A stretch of 64,000 nt of DNA, taken from contig NZ_QEKW01000003.1 of NCBI RefSeq assembly GCF_003096675.1, positions 1 to 64,000 on the forward strand, read 5' to 3'. A model generated the notes under the pieces. It was given only the letters and a program-made list of their open reading frames with translations. It did not search any database and was not told where the DNA came from. The position numbers and the translations under genes are program-made. Shown in pieces: positions 3,774 through 63,594 of this stretch. How positions within the stretch are numbered: the first letter of the stretch is position 1; each line of letters opens with the position of its first letter. This DNA is from Actinomycetospora cinnamomea (lineage in GTDB: Bacteria > Actinomycetota > Actinomycetes > Mycobacteriales > Pseudonocardiaceae).

Positions 3774-4228
3774 GGGTCGAGCCGGCCCGGGTAGCGGGCA
3801 CGGTACTCGTCCAGGTGCTGGGACTTGCAGACGTGCTGTTCCTTCTCGTTCTGCGCCTGGCGCATGCACTCGTCGAGCGTGCGCACCCCGCCGGTCTCGA
3901 GGTAGGTGACCGCGCCCGCGAGCGTGCTCCACTCCACCGCGACCGCGATCCCGACGGCGACGACACCCAGCGCCAGCCCGGCGAGCGGTCCGCGCCGGCC
4001 GACGTCGGCCCGCCCCCGTCGGCGCGCCAGCGCGGCCAGCCCGACGAGGACGGCGAGCAGCCCCAGCGCCAGGCCGCCCCATCCCGTCCACGCGCTGACC
4101 AGCGCCATCGCCCCCAGCACGGGCGCCGCGACGACCACCCCGGGGCGGCGGGAGGGTACCGGCGACCGGGCGGCGGCGTCGGTCGCCTCGGTCGCCTCGG
4201 TCGCGTCGGTCGCGGGCTCCGGGGGCAC
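3770..4228 (-). CDS. Small membrane protein upstream of CopD-CtaG
   Basis: A 152-residue protein with a Thr/Ala-rich N-terminus (repeated ATDATEATEATDA), two or three hydrophobic helices around residues 30-110 arranged like DUF4190-type proteins, and a charged C-terminal part with two cysteines 11 residues apart (DECMRQAQNEKEQHVCKS). That cysteine pair could bind metal or form a disulfide; this is inference from its position beside a copper gene. It overlaps the fusion gene downstream by 4 bp, so the two are very probably translated together. I do not recognise a named family with certainty. Confidence 0.72.
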   Translation of the reverse strand: MPPEPATDATEATEATDAAARSPVPSRRPGVVVAAPVLGAMALVSAWTGWGGLALGLLAVLVGLAALARRRGRADVGRRGPLAGLALGVVAVGIAVAVEWSTLAGAVTYLETGGVRTLDECMRQAQNEKEQHVCKSQHLDEYRARYPGRLDP

Positions 4229-7294: not shown

Positions 7295-7334
7295 GTGCGT
7301 GCTTTCCCGTGCTGGAGCACGGGAAACCACGCAC
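7295..7334. terminator. Long palindrome between convergent VOC and DUF58 genes
   Basis: Arms at 7295-7313 and 7316-7334 pair at 18 of 19 positions with a 2-nt centre. It begins 7 nt after the VOC stop and 12 nt beyond the DUF58 stop, where a bidirectional terminator is expected. There is no T-tract. The arm closely resembles the one at 22607 (GTGnGTGCTTnnCCGTGCT in both). Confidence 0.7.
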
Positions 7335-19349: not shown

Positions 19350-19455
19350 TCGTGTCCCTCCCAGGTCGTCCCGCCGGCGTCGCCCGGCGCGGGCCGCGAC
19401 CCCCGTCGCCGGCGCGCAGACGGTATCGCGTCCCCGCGCCCCTCGTCCTCTCACC

Positions 19456-19503
19456 CCACGTGCGTGATCTTCTGAGCTATAGCTCAGAAGATCACGCACG
19501 TGG
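19456..19503. terminator. 48-bp perfect palindrome at the 3' end of the CrtU-like gene
   Basis: Positions 19456-19479 and 19480-19503 are exact reverse complements with no loop base left over. The TGA stop of the CrtU-like gene (19492-19494) is inside it. Position implies a terminator. Bases 19454-19501 are identical to 61994-62041 inside egtC. Confidence 0.75.
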
Positions 19504-21018
19504 ACGGGCGGCCAGGATCCCGCGCGGGCGGATGGAACGCATCGGCTCAGGGGCGACGCCCTCCTCGCGCAGGACGTCGTTGGCGGCGGTCACGGCGGTG
19601 ACCGCGGCCCGCTCCATCAGCGCGGACGGGACGTCGCACGCCACCCAGTCACCGGCCAGGCGCAGGCCGCGGGCGTCGGTCAGCACGCCCGGGCGCACGA
19701 GGTGGTAGCCGGGGTCGAAGCCGGGCGCGTTCGTGTACCGGTGGGCGTCGACGTCGATCACCCGGAGGTCGGCGGCCTCGGGCCACAGCGCCGCGATCTC
19801 CTCGCGCATCGCCGCGACGAGCTCGTCGAGCGACGCCCCCGAGGGGCAGGCGTAGGAGTGCAGCTCGACCACCGACCCGCCGCGCTCGCGCGCCCACCGC
19901 GCCGACCCGCCCTCGAGCCGGTGGAACAGCGTCACCGAGTCGAGCACCCGCTCGCGGGTGACGCCGGTGAACACCGCCCGCGAGGGGTCGACGTCGCCCT
20001 CGCAGAACAGGCGCGCCACGACGTACGGCTCGCCGCCGGGCAGGGCCGCGATGCGCCGGGCCAGCCCCGGGGCGGCGGCGACCAGCTCGGGCGAGGCGGC
20101 GACGAGGTCACGGGTGGCCGGCACGTCGGTCGCGACGACCAGGTGGCGGGCGTTCCGGGCGGGCTCGCGCTCCACGTCGACCGCCCACCCCCGCGCCCCG
20201 TCCGGGCGCAGCGACACCGCCCGCGCGCCGGTGGTCACCGTCGCCCCGTGCTTCTCGAGCAGGCGGGTGAACGGCTCCCACAGCGCGGTGCGGTAGTCCT
20301 CGGTCGGGGCGTCCATGCCCAGGCCCTCGGGGTTGCCGGTGAAGTAGAAGTGGCACATGGCCAGGAACTCGGCGGCGGAGTAGCGCTGCTCCACGTTGAA
20401 GAACGAGTGCGCGAAGACCTCGAAGAGCATCGCCCGGCCGCGGTCGGAGAAGCCGAGGGCGTCGAGCAGCTCGGCGGCGCTGCGGTGGTCGTGCTCGGCG
20501 TAGGTGCGCACCGGGTCGTAGTGCAGCATCGCCAGCGCCTCGTCGGCGTCGACGCGGCGCAGCTCGCGCAGCTTGAAGCTGGGGCTGCGCAGGACGAGCG
20601 CGACGAGGTTGAGCAGCGGGGTGCGCGGCAGCCGCGTGAAGTCCTCGGGCTCCCAGCCCACCGACGGCCGGCTCGCGATCGGGTAGCCGCCGACGTCAGC
20701 CAGGAAGCCGAGGTCGGGGTCGATCCGGCGCAGGACGTCGCGCAGCGTGTAGTACTGCCGGAAGAAGCCGTGGTAGCCGTGCTCGACGACGACCTCGCTG
20801 CCGTCGGCCAGCGTCCGGTCCCACGTGCCGAGCCGGCCCCCGAGGTGCGGGGCCGCCTCGAGCAGCTCGACACGCACCCCGCGCTCGGCGAGCACGAGCG
20901 CGGCGGAGACGCCGGCGATCCCGCCGCCGACGACGACGGCGGTGGCGTCCGGACCCACGCGCTGCGGGAGGTCGGGCCGGGCGCGCACGTGGTGGTGGGG
21001 ACGGAACAGGCCGGACAC
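19492..21018 (-). CDS. CrtU-like FAD-dependent carotenoid desaturase family enzyme
   Basis: A 508-residue flavoprotein. The dinucleotide-binding GGGIAGVSAALVLAERG at about residues 28-44 is followed by ELLEAAPHLGGRLGTW, the second part of the FAD motif. GYHGFFRQYYTLRDVLRR resembles the conserved segment of isorenieratene synthase (CrtU) and related carotenoid-ring desaturases rather than phytoene desaturase; GLRLAGDWVACDVPSALMERA is the C-terminal FAD motif. CrtU desaturates and methyl-shifts beta-rings; no other carotenoid gene is nearby, so the substrate remains open. Start GTG 21018 with TAGGCT 8 nt before it. The stop codon lies inside a long palindrome. Confidence 0.75.
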   Translation of the reverse strand: MSGLFRPHHHVRARPDLPQRVGPDATAVVVGGGIAGVSAALVLAERGVRVELLEAAPHLGGRLGTWDRTLADGSEVVVEHGYHGFFRQYYTLRDVLRRIDPDLGFLADVGGYPIASRPSVGWEPEDFTRLPRTPLLNLVALVLRSPSFKLRELRRVDADEALAMLHYDPVRTYAEHDHRSAAELLDALGFSDRGRAMLFEVFAHSFFNVEQRYSAAEFLAMCHFYFTGNPEGLGMDAPTEDYRTALWEPFTRLLEKHGATVTTGARAVSLRPDGARGWAVDVEREPARNARHLVVATDVPATRDLVAASPELVAAAPGLARRIAALPGGEPYVVARLFCEGDVDPSRAVFTGVTRERVLDSVTLFHRLEGGSARWARERGGSVVELHSYACPSGASLDELVAAMREEIAALWPEAADLRVIDVDAHRYTNAPGFDPGYHLVRPGVLTDARGLRLAGDWVACDVPSALMERAAVTAVTAANDVLREEGVAPEPMRSIRPRGILAARPRA

Positions 21019-21131: not shown

Positions 21132-22598
21132 ATGCCCGAGACCGAGCGGGAACGCCGCGTGATCGACGAGGTCACGAAGGGGCTGATCATCGGCGGGGCG
21201 GTGCGCGACGCGACCGAGCAGAAGACGTTCGGCGTCGAGGATCCCTCCACCGGCCAGATCCTCTGCGACGTGGCCGACGCCTCGCCGGAGGACGGGATGG
21301 CCGCGCTGGAGGCCGCGCACACGGCGCAGCCCGACTGGGCGGCCGCGGCCCCGCGCGAGCGGGGCGAGATCCTGCGCCGCGCCTTCGAGCTGATCACCGA
21401 GCGCGCCGACGACATCGCGATGCTCATGACCCTGGAGATGGGCAAGCCGCTCGCCGAGTCCAAGGCCGAGATCACCTACGCCGCGGAGTTCTTCCGCTGG
21501 TTCTCCGAGGAGGCCGTGCGCATCTCCGGGGAGTGGAAGGTCAACGCCACCGGCTCGGGCCGGGTGCTGGTCATGCGCCAGCCGATCGGGCCCTGCCTGC
21601 TGATCACGCCGTGGAACTTCCCGCTGGCGATGGGCACCCGCAAGATCGGCCCGGCGATCGCGGCAGGCTGCACGATGGTCATCAAGCCGGCCTCGCTGAC
21701 GCCGCTGACCATCCTCAAGCTCGCCGACATCCTCGCCGAGGCGGGCCTGCCCGACGGCGTGCTCAACGTCGTCACCACGAAGTCCACCGGCAAGGTGATG
21801 GGCCCGCTGATCACCGACGGGCGCATCCGCAAGCTCTCGTTCACCGGCTCCACCGAGATCGGGCAGAAGCTGCTGCAGCAGGCGTCGGAGCAGGTGCTCA
21901 AGACGTCGATGGAGCTCGGGGGCAACGCGCCGTTCGTCGTGTGCGCCGACGCCGACGTCGACGACGCGGTGCAGGGCGCGATGCTCGCCAAGATGCGCAA
22001 CATCGGCGAGGCGTGCACCGCGGCCAACCGCTTCTACGTGCACGCCGACGTCGCCGAGGAGTTCACGAAGAAGCTCACCGAGCGGATGGGCGACATGAAG
22101 GTCGGGCGGGGCACCGAGGAGGGCGTCGAGGTCGGCCCGCTGGTGGAGGCCGACCAGCGCGACAAGGTCGCCGAGCTGGTCGACGACGCGGTGCAGAAGG
22201 GCGCCACGGTGCGCACGGGCGGGCGGATCCCGTCGGGCCAGGGGTACTTCTACCCGCCCACCGTGCTCTCCGACGTGCCCACCTCGGCCCGCCTGGCCAA
22301 GGAGGAGATCTTCGGCCCGGTGGCGCCGATCTTCACGTTCACCGAGGACGACGAGGCGATCCGGGCGGCCAACGACACCGAGTTCGGGCTGGTCAGCTAC
22401 CTGTACACCAAGGACCTCTCCCGGGCGATCAGGCTCTCCGAGCGCCTCGAGGCCGGCATGGTCGGGCTCAACCAGGGCATGGTGTCCAACGCCGGCGCCC
22501 CGTTCGGCGGCTGGAAGCAGTCCGGCCTGGGCCGCGAGGGCGGCAGCGTCGGCATCGACGAGTACCTGGAGATCAAGTACGTGGCGATGAACGTTTGA
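21132..22598 (+). CDS. gabD: NAD(P)-dependent succinate-semialdehyde dehydrogenase
   Basis: A 488-residue aldehyde dehydrogenase closest to succinate-semialdehyde dehydrogenases. It shows the cofactor segment TPWNFPLAMGTRKIGPA, FTGSTEIGQKL, the catalytic glutamate in MELGGNAPFV and the catalytic cysteine in NIGEACTAANRFYV; the C-terminal EIFGPVAPIFTF is standard. It would oxidise succinate semialdehyde to succinate, closing GABA or 4-hydroxybutyrate breakdown. The ATG start has GGAGGGG 4 nt upstream. No GABA transaminase is next to it; a transhydrogenase able to make its substrate is encoded 11 kb away at 33149. It ends 8 nt before a palindrome shared with the convergent DUF3616 gene. Confidence 0.85.
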   Translation: MPETERERRVIDEVTKGLIIGGAVRDATEQKTFGVEDPSTGQILCDVADASPEDGMAALEAAHTAQPDWAAAAPRERGEILRRAFELITERADDIAMLMTLEMGKPLAESKAEITYAAEFFRWFSEEAVRISGEWKVNATGSGRVLVMRQPIGPCLLITPWNFPLAMGTRKIGPAIAAGCTMVIKPASLTPLTILKLADILAEAGLPDGVLNVVTTKSTGKVMGPLITDGRIRKLSFTGSTEIGQKLLQQASEQVLKTSMELGGNAPFVVCADADVDDAVQGAMLAKMRNIGEACTAANRFYVHADVAEEFTKKLTERMGDMKVGRGTEEGVEVGPLVEADQRDKVAELVDDAVQKGATVRTGGRIPSGQGYFYPPTVLSDVPTSARLAKEEIFGPVAPIFTFTEDDEAIRAANDTEFGLVSYLYTKDLSRAIRLSERLEAGMVGLNQGMVSNAGAPFGGWKQSGLGREGGSVGIDEYLEIKYVAMNV

Positions 22599-22606
22599 GC
22601 TCCGCT

Positions 22607-22652
22607 CTTGTGAGTGCTTGTCCGTGCTGGGGCACGGACAAGCACTCACAAG
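22607..22652. terminator. Perfect 21-bp-stem palindrome between convergent genes
   Basis: Arms 22607-22627 and 22632-22652 are exact reverse complements around TGGG. It follows the dehydrogenase stop by 8 nt and contains the TGA of the convergent DUF3616 gene (22646-22648) in its right arm. Closely related in sequence to the palindrome at 7295. Confidence 0.78.
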
Positions 22653-23632
22653 GCCGTAGGCCAAAGGTCCCCCACGAGGGTCTGGTCGTCGAGGCGGTGG
22701 GCGGCGGGGGTGTCGTGCAGCACGAGCAGGCCCTCGGGCAGCACGGCGAGGCCCTCGGGGCGGTCGCACCCCACGCCGACGGCGAGCTCGGCCACGACCT
22801 CGACCTCCTCGCGCCGGATCGCCGGCGGCAGCGGGTTCGCCGCCGCCCCGGGCAGGCGCACGATCCGGGCCGGGCCGTCGAGCACCATCGTCGGCCCGAC
22901 CAGGACGAGCAGGTCGTCGCCGTCGCGGGCGAGGTCGCGCACGCCCAGCCCGTCGAGGTCGGCGACGTGCTTGGTGACGCCGTCGAGCACCAGCTCGGCG
23001 CCCTCGGCGCGCAGCGCGAGCGCGAGCAGCACCGCCCACCCCCGCAGCACCGGGCCGCGCAGGCCGAGGAGCACCCGGTCCCCCACCACCGCGAGCCCCT
23101 CGACGTCGAACCCGTTGTCCTTGCCGGGCACGCCGAGGAACGGGCCCAGGTGCTCGTCGTCGGCCAGCGCCCCGAGCAGCCCGCGCCGTCCCGACGGCAG
23201 CCGGGCCCCGGCGCCCGCCGCGGGCCACGGCCCGTCCGGACCGTCACGCAGGGGCAGCCGGGCCAGCAGCCGCCGGGACTTCTCCGCCGACACCCGGGCC
23301 AGCCGGGCCTGCACCTCCCCCGCCGGCGTCCCGGGCCGGACCCGCTTGCGCTTCGCGCTGTGCGAGCCCACCACCCACAGCGCCCCGTCGACGAGGTCGA
23401 GGCCCTCCGCGTCGACCTCGTCCCCCGGTTTCCCGGGCAGCGTCACGGCGTCGGCCAGCGGCACCTCCTCGGGACTCCCCCAGCCCTCCCCGTCGCGGCG
23501 CAGGCGCAGCAGGGACGCGCCCTCGTCGGGGGCGAGGAAGAGGGTGTCGCCCGCCGCCGCCACCCCGGAGACGTCGAGCCCGCTCGTGGCGGCGTGGACC
23601 CCGAGGTGCAGCCGGACGGGTCGCACGGTCAC
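22646..23632 (-). CDS. DUF3616 domain protein
   Basis: A 328-residue protein of the DUF3616 family, likely a beta-propeller-like structure with repeated strands such as GDTLFLAPDEGASLLRL, GALWVVGSHSAKRKR, DVEGLAVVGDRVLLGL and RPEGLAVLPEGLLVLHD. The two EGL segments are characteristic. No catalytic residues are known for the family. The GTG at 23632 is used because GAGGG stands just before it and it begins 7 nt after the stop of the lipoprotein gene, forming an operon. Its stop codon is supplied by the palindrome at 22607-22652. Confidence 0.8.
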   Translation of the reverse strand: MTVRPVRLHLGVHAATSGLDVSGVAAAGDTLFLAPDEGASLLRLRRDGEGWGSPEEVPLADAVTLPGKPGDEVDAEGLDLVDGALWVVGSHSAKRKRVRPGTPAGEVQARLARVSAEKSRRLLARLPLRDGPDGPWPAAGAGARLPSGRRGLLGALADDEHLGPFLGVPGKDNGFDVEGLAVVGDRVLLGLRGPVLRGWAVLLALALRAEGAELVLDGVTKHVADLDGLGVRDLARDGDDLLVLVGPTMVLDGPARIVRLPGAAANPLPPAIRREEVEVVAELAVGVGCDRPEGLAVLPEGLLVLHDTPAAHRLDDQTLVGDLWPTAL

Positions 23633-37308: not shown

Positions 37309-39099
<1,791 letters not shown>

Positions 39100-39103
<4 letters not shown>

Positions 39104-60337: not shown

Positions 60338-61309
60338 TCAGCGACGGCAGGCCAGCGACAGGGCGAAGCGGCCCTGCGGGTCGGTGAACCAGCCGTCGTG
60401 GGAGAACCCGGCGGCGTCCAGCTCGCCGCGGATGCCCTCGCGGGTGAACTTCGTGGAGATCTCGGTGCGCATCTCCTCGGCCGCGGCGAAGTCGACCTCC
60501 AGGTCGAGCTCGGGCACGCGCACCCGCATCGCCCGCCGCGCCCGCAGGCGCATCTCGATGCGGCTCGACTGCGGCACCCACACCGCCAGGTGGTCGAAGC
60601 CCGAGCGGTCGAAGTCGGCGCCGAGCACCCGGTTGAGCACCGCGAGGACGTTGAGGTCGAAGGCGGCGGTCACGCCGTCCCGGTCGTCGTAGGCCGCGAC
60701 CAGCGTCGCCTCGTCCTTGACCAGGTCGGTGCCGACGAGGAACGCCTCCCCCGGGTCCAGCGCGTCGGCCAGCGCCGCGAGGAACACCTGGCGGTCGCCG
60801 GGCTCGAAGTTCCCCAGCGTCCCGCCGAGCAGCGCCACCAGCCGGCGCCCGTCGCGCGGCACGCTTCGCAGGTCACGGGTGAAGTCGGCGACGACGCCGT
60901 GGACGTCGAGCCCCGGGTAGGCCTCGACCAGGCCCGGCACCGCCTCCTCGAGCGCCGACGGCGAGACGTCCACGGGCACGTAACGACGCAGCGTGCCCGC
61001 GCGGTGCAGCGCGTCGAGCAGCACCGGGGTCTTCGACGAGGACCCCGAGCCCAGCTCGACGAGCGTGTCGGCGGCCGCGGCGCGGGCGATCGTGTCGGCG
61101 TGCTCGGCGAGGGCCTCGCGCTCGGCGGTGAAGGGGTAGTACTCCGGCAGCGCGGTGATCTGCTCGAACAGCTCGCTCCCCCGGGCGTCGTAGAGCCACT
61201 GCGGGGACAGCACCTTCGGGGTCGCGGTCAGACCGCGGCGGGCGTCGGCGCGGAGCGCGGCGTCGGCGTCGTCGGCGGTGAGGTGTACGTCGAGCGCGGG
61301 CAGGCTCAT
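60338..61309 (-). CDS. egtD: L-histidine N-alpha-methyltransferase EgtD
   Basis: A 323-residue enzyme that trimethylates histidine to hercynine with SAM, the first committed step of ergothioneine synthesis. TPKVLSPQWLYDARGSELFEQI and LPEYYPFTAEREAL are the histidine-pocket blocks, LVELGSGSSSKTPVLLDAL is the SAM motif I, and PVDVSPSALEEA post-I. Usual length is about 321. The ATG at 61309 matches the family start (LPALDVHLT); an upstream GTG at 61342 is in frame. It follows egtC by 52 nt. No EgtE-like PLP lyase gene follows. Confidence 0.95.
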   Translation of the reverse strand: MSLPALDVHLTADDADAALRADARRGLTATPKVLSPQWLYDARGSELFEQITALPEYYPFTAEREALAEHADTIARAAAADTLVELGSGSSSKTPVLLDALHRAGTLRRYVPVDVSPSALEEAVPGLVEAYPGLDVHGVVADFTRDLRSVPRDGRRLVALLGGTLGNFEPGDRQVFLAALADALDPGEAFLVGTDLVKDEATLVAAYDDRDGVTAAFDLNVLAVLNRVLGADFDRSGFDHLAVWVPQSSRIEMRLRARRAMRVRVPELDLEVDFAAAEEMRTEISTKFTREGIRGELDAAGFSHDGWFTDPQGRFALSLACRR

Positions 61310-61361
61310 CGGTGTCGGTTCACGTCCTGGGGGTCGGGACACGCTTCTCGCGTGCCGGCGT

Positions 61362-62195
61362 TCACGGCAGCGGGAACGGGCCGTGCGGCGAGAGGGCCGT
61401 GACGGTCACGGCCGGTGGGTCGTGCGGGCCGCCGGGGCGGGCGACGAGCAGGGACCCGTCGGGCACCGCGGTCCACGCGGCGTCGTCGTCGAGGGGCTCG
61501 GAGGCGACGGTGACGGCCCCGTCGGCGTGGGTGCGGTACGACAGGGCGTGGTCCACGGCCGTGGCCACGACCTGCGCGCCGTCGGAGAGCAGCAGGTTCA
61601 GCCGCGACGCGGGGGCGGCGGCGAGGGCCTCGGTGACGACGCCGGCGACCGCGTCGGCGGCGTCCTTGCCCGCCGCGATGCGGGCGCGCACCAGTGCCCA
61701 GAGCAGCGCGGAGTCGGTGGCCGCCTCGAGGGTCAGCAGGTCGAGGGCGGGGAGGGTCGCGGCCAGGTCGGCCACGCTGTGCGGCCAGCCCCGGACCACC
61801 CCGTTGTGGCTGAACAGCCACGTCGACCCGCCCGCCTCGCCACGGAACGGCGCGCACGCCGCCGTCGACACGGGCATGCCCACGGTCGCCGAGCGCACCG
61901 CGGCCACCAGCGCGGTGGTCTCCACCGCCCGCGCGAGGTCGAGGAACGACGCGTCGGTCCACATCGGGTCGTCGCGGCGGTACAGCACCGGCTCCCCACG
62001 TGCGTGATCTTCTGAGCTATAGCTCAGAAGATCACGCACGTACCAGCCGACGCCGAACCCGTCGGCGTTGACGGTGCCGCCGCCACGCATGTCCGAAGGG
62101 GCGTAGCTCTGCACCAGCAACGAGTGCGGCGGCTCGGTCACGACCGCGGCGAGCGTGACCGGCGTCGGGCCCAGGTGGGCCAGGTGGCGGCACAC
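61362..62195 (-). CDS. egtC: Ergothioneine biosynthesis amidohydrolase EgtC with palindromic insert
   Basis: A 277-residue class II glutamine-amidotransferase-type hydrolase that removes the gamma-glutamyl group from hercynyl-gamma-glutamyl-cysteine sulfoxide. The N-terminal nucleophile Cys2 is in MCRHLAHLG; VQSYAPSD, NADGFGVGW, AAVRSATVGMP and FSHNGVVRGW are family blocks. Residues 53-67 (VRDLLSYSSEDHARG) are encoded by a palindrome identical to one at 19454 and are absent from the EgtC sequences I know, where NADGxGVGW is followed closely by the RR..PxW.D segment. Reading frame is kept. GTG 62195 starts 1 nt after the egtB stop. Confidence 0.92.
   Translation of the reverse strand: MCRHLAHLGPTPVTLAAVVTEPPHSLLVQSYAPSDMRGGGTVNADGFGVGWYVRDLLSYSSEDHARGEPVLYRRDDPMWTDASFLDLARAVETTALVAAVRSATVGMPVSTAACAPFRGEAGGSTWLFSHNGVVRGWPHSVADLAATLPALDLLTLEAATDSALLWALVRARIAAGKDAADAVAGVVTEALAAAPASRLNLLLSDGAQVVATAVDHALSYRTHADGAVTVASEPLDDDAAWTAVPDGSLLVARPGGPHDPPAVTVTALSPHGPFPLP
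61998..62041. repeat. 44-bp perfect palindrome inside egtC
   Basis: Positions 61998-62019 and 62020-62041 are exact reverse complements. Together with four flanking bases (61994-61997) it is identical over 48 bp to 19454-19501, in the same orientation relative to the host gene. Of its three reading phases only one is open, and egtC uses that one. Confidence 0.9.
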
Positions 62196-62196
62196 G

Positions 62197-63594
62197 TCAG
62201 GCGGACCGGGCGCAGCGGAAGCCGGAGAAGATCTGCCGGCGGATCGGCAGGTCCCAGTTGCGGAACGTCGTGCGGGCGTTGGGGGTGCCGACGCCGAACG
62301 ACGACCCGCGCAGCATCCGGAAGTCGCCGCCGAAGAACACCTCGGAGTACTCCTTGTACGGGAACGGCTCGAACCCCGGGTAACCCTCGAACCCGGAGTC
62401 GCACCACTCCCACACGTCGCCGACGAGCTGGTGCACGCCCAGCGGCGACGCGCCGGCCGGGTAGGCGCCGACCGGAGCGGGCTGCAGGTGACGCTGGTCG
62501 AGGTTGGCGCGCTCGGGAGTGGGGTCCTCGTCGCCCCACGGGAAGCGCCGGGTGGTGCCCGTGGCGTGGTCGTAGCGGGCCGCGAACTCCCACTCGGCCT
62601 CGGTGGGCAGGCGCTTGCCCGCCCACGCCGCGTAGGCCGCCGCCTCCCCGAAGCTCACGTGCAGCACCGGCTGGTCGGCCGGGATCTCCTCGCGCACCCC
62701 GAACGACGTCCGGTACCAGCGCCCGTCCGCGCGCTCCCAGCTCATCGGCGCGGTCCAGCCCTCGGCCCGGATGTGCTCCCACCCCTCGGGCGACCACCAG
62801 CGCGGGTCGTCGTACCCGCCGGCGTCGACGAACCGGGCGTACTCGGCGTTGGTCACCGGCGCCGCGTCGAGCCAGAAGTCGGCGACGCGCACGGGGTGCG
62901 CGGGCTTCTCGTTGTCCAGCGCGAAGGGCTCGCTGGACGTGCCCATCAGGAACTCCGCGCCGGGGTGGAACACCTCCGTGCCGGGCAGGCCGCGGACGAC
63001 GGACGGCGGCGGCGGGTCGGCGTGCAGCACCGGCGCTCCGGCGCGGAGCTGGTGGGTGGCGAGCATCGTCTCCACGTGCTGCTGCTCGTGCTGGACGATC
63101 ATGCCGAACAGGAAGCCGCCGGCGAGCGTGCGGCGCTCGTCGAACGACGTCGCGTCGAGGTGGGCCAGCGCCCGCTCGCGCACGCGGTCGCCGTACACCC
63201 GCGCCTCGTCCGGATCGAGCAGCGGCAGCGCGGGCCGGCCGGCGCGCGGGTTGGTGAACGCGTCGTAGAGGTGGTCGACGTCCTCGCGCACGCCGTCGAC
63301 CAGGTCGGTGTCGGCCGCCCCGCGGCGCACCAGCCAGAAGTCCTCCATGTTCGCGATGTGCGCGACGTCCCAGTGGAACGGCGACATCAGCGGCGAGTGC
63401 TGGCGGGTGAAGTCGGCGTCGTCGGGGTCGAAGACGTCGTGGGTCAGCGCGCGGGTGCGGGCCCGGGCGGCCGCGAGCTCGGCGGCGAGGCGGCGACGGA
63501 GCGCGGCCCGTTCGGTGCCGCCGGGGCCGGTGCACGTGCTGGGGTCGGTGCTGGGGTCGGTGCTGGGGTCGGTGCTGGGGTCGGTGGCGGTCAC
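62197..63594 (-). CDS. egtB: Hercynine oxygenase EgtB (sulfoxide synthase)
   Basis: A 465-residue iron enzyme that joins hercynine and gamma-glutamylcysteine with O2 to form the sulfoxide. The DinB-like N-terminal half has the iron histidines in SPFHWDVAHIANMEDFW and QHEQQHVETML; the C-terminal FGE-sulfatase domain includes GTEVFHPGAEFLMGT, KRLPTEAEWEFAARYD and LVGDVWEWCDS. Residues 4-20 are four (S)TDP repeats from a 12-bp tandem repeat, beyond the usual start. GTG 63594 overlaps the egtA stop by 4 bp; a later start is possible if the repeats are leader. Confidence 0.95.
   Translation of the reverse strand: MTATDPSTDPSTDPSTDPSTCTGPGGTERAALRRRLAAELAAARARTRALTHDVFDPDDADFTRQHSPLMSPFHWDVAHIANMEDFWLVRRGAADTDLVDGVREDVDHLYDAFTNPRAGRPALPLLDPDEARVYGDRVRERALAHLDATSFDERRTLAGGFLFGMIVQHEQQHVETMLATHQLRAGAPVLHADPPPPSVVRGLPGTEVFHPGAEFLMGTSSEPFALDNEKPAHPVRVADFWLDAAPVTNAEYARFVDAGGYDDPRWWSPEGWEHIRAEGWTAPMSWERADGRWYRTSFGVREEIPADQPVLHVSFGEAAAYAAWAGKRLPTEAEWEFAARYDHATGTTRRFPWGDEDPTPERANLDQRHLQPAPVGAYPAGASPLGVHQLVGDVWEWCDSGFEGYPGFEPFPYKEYSEVFFGGDFRMLRGSSFGVGTPNARTTFRNWDLPIRRQIFSGFRCARSA
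63538..63585. repeat. Four perfect 12-bp tandem repeats in the 5' end of egtB
   Basis: The unit GCTGGGGTCGGT is repeated four times without error, encoding DPST on the minus strand. The unit length is a multiple of three, so copy number can change without frame loss. Confidence 0.85.

Follow-up and report, generated by a model that had tools for sequence, protein, structure and literature searches.

The locus considered here raises the question of how a perfect palindrome came to be translated as part of egtC in Actinomycetospora cinnamomea, and why the same letters stand at the end of another gene nearby. We analysed a stretch of 64,000 nucleotides (positions 1 to 64,000 of contig NZ_QEKW01000003.1, RefSeq assembly GCF_003096675.1; hereafter the window), the genome to which it belongs and a set of 18 genomes of the genus. 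The reading that we favour, with a probability of roughly 0.6, is that the egtC element is one of a family of dispersed Actinomycetospora palindromes that lie at gene ends by default and are rewritten, at the DNA level, from other copies in the same genome. Below, handles beginning with G denote genomes, with C contigs and with L loci; palindromes are given without strand.

The egtC gene (61362-62195, minus strand) encodes a class-II glutamine amidotransferase of 277 amino acids with a GATase_4 domain and matches to the EgtC structures PDB 4zfk, 4zfj and 4zfl. Positions 61998-62041 form a perfect, spacerless palindrome of 44 bp, predicted to fold as RNA into a hairpin of -37.3 kcal/mol (z -11). 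As the initial annotation had stated, the 48 bases that begin at 61994 and end at 62041 are identical to 19454-19501. The twin, a perfect palindrome of 48 bp (19456-19503), lies at the 3' end of a CrtU-like FAD oxidoreductase gene (19492-21018, minus strand; Pfam Amino_oxidase), which ends at position 8 of the palindrome's 40-bp core and takes its TGA stop from the palindrome, again as proposed. In egtC the palindrome is translated in frame as VRDLLSYSSEDHARG, residues 53-67, and direct reading found each of the remaining two phases interrupted by TGA; the further statement that EgtC proteins have only a few residues at this place was borne out by 4zfk, the closest solved EgtC, which shows a gap of 11 residues opposite the insert. 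Within the window the 28-bp core occurs twice at up to three mismatches and in none of 100 shuffles, and Rfam families gave no match above the gathering score.

The window samples a much larger set. Members of the family are spacerless palindromes of about 40-44 bp with the outer motif GTG[A/C]G…C[T/G]CAC. In this genome the 28-bp core has 24 exact occurrences, spread over many of the 50 contigs, and a 32-bp core has 53 at up to three mismatches; among the loci read, the exact 40-mer is present in 24 and the exact 44-mer in 20, well beyond the two places that an assembly error might have been thought to explain. On contig C3 (464 kb, searched whole), 19 of 20 family palindromes are centred within 60 bp of a gene 3' end, compared with 30% of random intergenic positions, and the sole exception is the copy inside egtC. 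Of 74 copies of this genome examined, 60 sit at gene 3' ends (33 common to two convergent ends and 27 at one end), 9 lie in reading frames and 5 elsewhere. This census comprised contig C3 and the loci around sites matching type-A-like patterns, so its in-gene fraction is biased toward type A, and gene calls came from our own codon-usage caller, not a standard annotator. Of 93 gene ends listed for this genome, 25 have their stop codon within the stem and 58 have it 0-12 nt ahead of the stem; the palindrome provides the stop in about a quarter of gene-end cases. A 'named' set of 55 rows was also divided (46 at gene ends, 8 in genes, 1 other); it includes 6 rows of the G178 genome, and the two sets were therefore not summed.

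The nine in-gene copies occupy seven or eight genes, and all nine are in phase 0, which is open. Their hosts are egtC, a MocR-type regulator (GntR plus aminotransferase), an HldE-like protein (PfkB plus cytidylyltransferase), KdpB, a family 9 glycosyltransferase, a carboxyltransferase and one or more nonribosomal peptide synthetase (NRPS) genes with three copies. One of the nine is doubtful: the carboxyltransferase copy sits at the gene start (L280), possibly upstream of the true one. The NRPS copies (L032:3900-3939, L033:680-719 and 3818-3857) belong to one or two giant genes, where they lie in frame in condensation and adenylation regions; two of them occupy equivalent places of different adenylation domains. 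Among the named loci, six of eight in-gene calls are in phase 0, the others (L110, L126) being in another phase of doubtful gene calls. One example of an insert peptide is DLLSYSSEDHAR. Gene-end copies, which are untranslated, have phase 0 open in 78 of 80 distinct 40-mers (in 200 arm shuffles the mean was 63.6 and the highest count 76), an excess that is suggestive only, since the 40-mers are related to each other. From the sequence we infer that the egtC element is a tolerated passenger, passed by translation in its sole stop-free phase.

A palindrome is present at the identical codon of egtC in 8 of the 18 genomes (G000, G250, G178, G135, G235, G189, G166 and G227), and the other ten have a short loop there. 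The egtC insert is thus inherited rather than recent. The initial annotation had pictured a mobile element, comparable in logic to those of Rickettsia, that could end genes or be tolerated in frame within one; genome-wide occurrence, gene-end placement, nine in-frame copies and empty sites in relatives sustain this in part, as a repeated palindromic element that behaves in these two ways. The palindromes at this codon differ in sequence between genomes, with paired changes in G166 and G235 and a perfect palindrome of very different sequence in G227. Alignment with relatives did not show the same residues under unrelated codons: residues and codons change together and the palindrome persists. 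In the sister species G210 and G243 (L073, L074) the egtC insert is absent and the MocR-type and HldE-like inserts are kept; the insert may have been lost, the gene may have been replaced, or the gain may have come later in other lineages.

The other in-gene sites are similarly traceable. The MocR-type gene carries the insert in 10 of 18 genomes and the remaining eight loci have no family palindrome, a comparison that shows the absence of family palindromes from the outgroup loci and not their loop residues. Nine copies each were found in the HldE-like gene and the family 9 glycosyltransferase, and seven outgroup HldE-like loci that were read have no family palindrome (neither an HldE-like nor a heptosyltransferase gene was matched in G219; in G250 the HldE-like gene was unmatched and the heptosyltransferase matched in part). 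Origin of the palindrome by gene fusion is unlikely: palindrome-free MocR-type genes are near-full-length matches in six of eight outgroup genomes and match in two pieces in the other two.

While the letters change, the pairing is kept. Of the stem cells of 34 distinct units inside genes, 92.5% are paired, compared with 75.0% after shuffling; 14 of 18 pair positions have been altered on both sides, and stem covariation is 0.456 against 0.151 in shuffled units (none of 500 reached it) and, when slid, no more than 0.124, kinship of the sequences inflating the shuffle control. The outer ends of the units are conserved. Gene ends show comparable turnover: at orthologous ends in this genome and G178, palindromes with different stems were found at positions 19456, 22607, 124636 and 169781 of this genome, each with both flanks matched, and a fifth pair (209296 here, 328777 in G178) is matched on the left flank only.

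Copies within one genome are more alike than chance predicts. Across five in-gene sites, two copies from the same genome but from different genes are on average 8.9 of 40 letters apart (62 pairs), and copies of the same gene in different genomes 11.0 of 40 (151 pairs). When genome labels were shuffled within genes the within-genome mean was 11.9, and 0 of 10,000 permutations reached the observed 8.9, in a test that takes no account of rate differences between lineages; the similarity persisted when G000 and G189 were excluded (P 0.004). In the A. cinnamomea genome one 40-letter sequence is shared by the egtC, MocR-type and HldE-like copies and by 21 others, and five of its nine in-gene copies are its exact commonest 40-mer. 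In G178 the HldE-like copy equals two type-B gene-end copies, and in G210 the MocR-type and glycosyltransferase copies are one letter apart. G243 is mixed: two of its genes carry type A, and its HldE-like and KdpB copies are of other types. The comparisons suggest that scattered copies evolve in concert within a genome. The egtC insert matches the commonest palindrome of its own genome; its sequence, unlike its insertion, looks recent.

Copies would, in the mechanism that we propose, be rewritten from others in the same genome by a process acting on DNA. Replication would stall or break at a hairpin or cruciform; a sister element would then be copied, by repair or by template switching, and the two arms re-matched, a process eased by the outer GTG[AC]G and the central stretches that copies have in common. 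The peptide inserted in EgtC would alter whenever the palindrome was rewritten, and the translating ribosome would prevent the hairpin from ending transcription from egtC into egtD. The fuller account, which we put a little short of even odds, is that gene-end palindromes lacking a RAYT (REP-associated tyrosine transposase, where REP is a repetitive extragenic palindromic sequence) spread and overwrite each other by DNA copying, so that in each species segments of EgtC, the HldE-like kinase, the MocR-type regulator, the glycosyltransferase, KdpB and the NRPS would jointly take on one new peptide. Renewal of palindromes within conserved genes is the surprising part.

Several observations weigh against rewriting within a genome, beyond the limits of the pairing and permutation tests given above. 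No enzyme or intermediate has been identified for the copying. The symmetry of the flanks past 44 bp is no more than composition predicts, so hairpin-templated repair has left no extra trace there, and symmetric flanks failed as a proof of it. Certain sites withstand rewriting: in G178 the egtC copy is near type A while the HldE-like and MocR-type copies are type B. The contig of G227 that carries egtC (C170, L083) ends exactly at the palindrome, whose perfection may therefore be an assembly effect; the contig stops as though a repeat or hairpin had halted assembly. Four palindromes of contig C3 (7295, 38077, 73449 and 108393) have no counterpart at the orthologous place in G178, which at the place of 73449 carries a hairpin of another kind. 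No U-tract follows the stem, the type-A sites of this genome showing A or G and then mostly G. Among 720 sense-strand pairs of 40 in-gene copies, mismatches comprise 8 G·U, 15 A·C and 31 others, a small difference between G·U and A·C (two-sided P 0.21). Lastly, if each genome's dominant type had been inserted independently at the same hot spots, similarity within genomes would also result.

This last point belongs to the main rival, repeated insertion at hot spots, which we consider unlikely: a transposase acting in trans would insert palindromes again and again at preferred loops and gene ends, each variant being a separate insertion. In its favour is a loop of KdpB, filled by different palindromes in G000, G250, G235 and G243 and short (VADDGRALG or VADG[S/A]RALG) in G189, G166, G210 and G135; no orthologue was read in G178 or G227, and G258 gave a weak match only. 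Repeated gain there is favoured by the likeness of the short loops in different lineages. In a tree of three proteins with the inserts removed, G243 (filled) and G210 (empty) are sisters with support of 1.0, and their difference may be a gain in one or a loss in the other; two deeper nodes of this tree are weak (0.48 and 0.68), MocR was available for 10 genomes only and sequence-poor genomes were excluded. In G219 (L338), which falls outside the main clade, the same loop holds an imperfect palindrome of other sequence, and this suggests that the loop is an insertion hot spot. The conserved outer ends and the orthologous gene ends without copies also fit a transposase. Against it, the RAYT domain Y1_Tnp (PF01797) was found in none of the 18 genus genomes by a search that detected it in 5 of 14 controls and covered this transposase family alone, and direct repeats of at least 3 abutting the 40- or 44-bp unit, as a target-site duplication would leave, were found at none of 42 type-A sites of this genome. 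Moreover, no main-clade genome that was read has an empty MocR-type or HldE-like site (10 and 9 genomes), which a single old insertion fits better.

Stepwise selection for a hairpin in the message, such as an attenuator or pause site, with each site evolving singly by compensated changes, is improbable. Strong stem covariation and a very stable hairpin are what it would produce, but selection on an RNA hairpin is expected to favour G·U over A·C mismatches, and no such preference appears, in small numbers, either within genes (the counts above) or at gene ends (7 and 7 at one-gene ends and 7 and 11 at two-gene ends of this genome; 12 and 14 in G178). The mismatch counts give no support to an RNA-level cause, and a DNA-level cause is the simpler reading. 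The identical 40-mers in unrelated genes of one genome are, moreover, not expected from independent evolution. Still less probable is selection of the inserted peptide for protein function. The frame is open in all 40 in-gene copies at the five sites, which speaks for it, but peptides at the egtC site diverge widely (VRDLLSYSSEDHAR, VSEPPGYSTEVRSR and VSGIRGHDREFRS), unrelated enzymes of one genome carry the same peptide, and some relatives and 4zfk have short loops instead. Assembly error or chance repetition, for which nothing in the window speaks and only the contig end in G227 could be cited, is ruled out by the 24 exact cores over many contigs, the empty shuffles and the same-codon inserts in separate assemblies of other species.

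We compared the family with known systems as the cited papers describe them. REPs are short palindromes present many times per genome, just downstream of genes or between convergent genes and in some cases inside genes; their ends can supply stop codons, recB of two Xanthomonas species carries different REPs at about the same site, CGTC REPs likewise have no dedicated RAYT, and the Rickettsia palindromic elements (RPEs) RPE-4 and RPE-6 are classed as CGTC repeats (PMC3733652). The word 'actinobacteria' does not occur in the main text of that paper. The present family resembles REPs in its dispersal, its position mainly 3' of genes, its supply of stop codons and its in-gene copies. It differs in that its two ends are alike and pair with each other, type-A sites of this genome showing no tag, GTAG or CGTC, at one end alone, in that GTAG types have a RAYT whereas the 18 genus genomes gave no RAYT-domain match, and in that concerted change of in-gene copies has been measured for it. 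With RPEs it shares the in-frame palindrome in many unrelated genes and a shared peptide (PMC10969869). RPEs are about 150 bp long (PMC10969869) and lose their repeat identity over time (PMC6649704), whereas the in-gene palindromes here are 44 bp and stay or regain perfection; the distinction is drawn from descriptions of RPEs, not from their sequences.

Nematomorpha mitochondria have perfect inverted repeats in protein genes that are gained and lost between species, for which conversion or template switching has been proposed (PMC6649704). The likeness lies in coding palindromes that are kept, gained and lost; those repeats, however, reach 284 bp and encode conserved regions (PMC6649704), whereas the present family adds residues and also lies at gene ends. 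Template switching at quasipalindromes makes imperfect palindromes more perfect in E. coli (PMC7202029) and yeast genes (PMC8604942), by paired changes like those seen here, but as described it acts within one palindrome and leaves the sharing of sequence among unrelated genes unexplained; its link to scattered copies is our proposal. Unlike miniature inverted-repeat transposable elements, the family has no target-site duplication at the 42 type-A sites. Filing it under neither REP nor RPE, as a new REP/RPE-like family without a RAYT, is our best reading of the sequences.

Intrinsic terminators are stable hairpins at gene 3' ends, often common to convergent genes. The gene-end copies have this stable hairpin, often between convergent genes, and differ in lacking a U-tract and in having relatives within reading frames. 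They probably act as hairpins that end transcription in both directions.

The core, within three mismatches, was found in 7 of 297 genomes of Pseudonocardiaceae, all seven among the 18 of the genus, and a scan of named genomes found it only in Actinomycetospora succinea, straminea, chibensis and callitridis (36 stretches; the A. cinnamomea genome was possibly excluded). The wider outer motif CGTGMGYG-N26-CRCKCACG occurs 60 times in this genome and in 16 of 18 genus genomes; several other genera of the family also have it in abundance, 57 of 120 genomes giving any match, with a maximum of 457 in one genome and 0-2 for the reversed pattern as control. It apparently marks a family-wide class of repeats in Pseudonocardiaceae. 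G004, G020, G028, G054, G058, G065 and others carry it 100-457 times with stem sequences of their own (for example, CGTGAGTGGTAAGGACGGTT). No plasmid copies were found using two query sequences, and among the matches listed from the open-access literature none dealt with repeats of this kind in Actinomycetospora or Pseudonocardiaceae.

Three further palindromes lie in the window. Those at 7295-7334, between convergent gene ends and absent from the orthologous place in G178, and at 22607-22652, between convergent genes 21132-22598 (plus strand) and 22646-23632 (minus strand), are family members of another sub-type; the latter has a different palindrome as its G178 counterpart (C18:153817-153862). 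The third, a related GC-rich palindrome (38077-38126), is at the 3' end of gene 38126-39103 (minus strand), and the orthologous place in G178 has no palindrome. All three have the outer stem GTG[A/C/T]G, GC-rich stems and a small mismatch at the centre. In G178, two family palindromes of different sub-type, about 65 bp apart from start to start, were seen at each of C19:280233-280337 (L116) and C11:239741-239848 (L303). The egtC gene is preceded by an egtB-like gene (62197-63594, minus strand; FGE-sulfatase and DinB_2 domains) and followed by an egtD-like gene (60338-61309, minus strand; Methyltransf_33, histidine-specific methyltransferase), whose start at 61309 is that of the codon-usage caller, the open reading frame list placing it at 61342.

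The origin, spread and upkeep of REP-like palindromes have long been unsettled; a review of 1988 reportedly put 'evolution by gene conversion?' in its title. Here identical sites can be traced inside genes over about ten related species, and since in-gene flanks fix orthology, insertion, turnover and rewriting become separable. The family also suggests a route by which unrelated proteins could gain the same peptide without selection on the protein.
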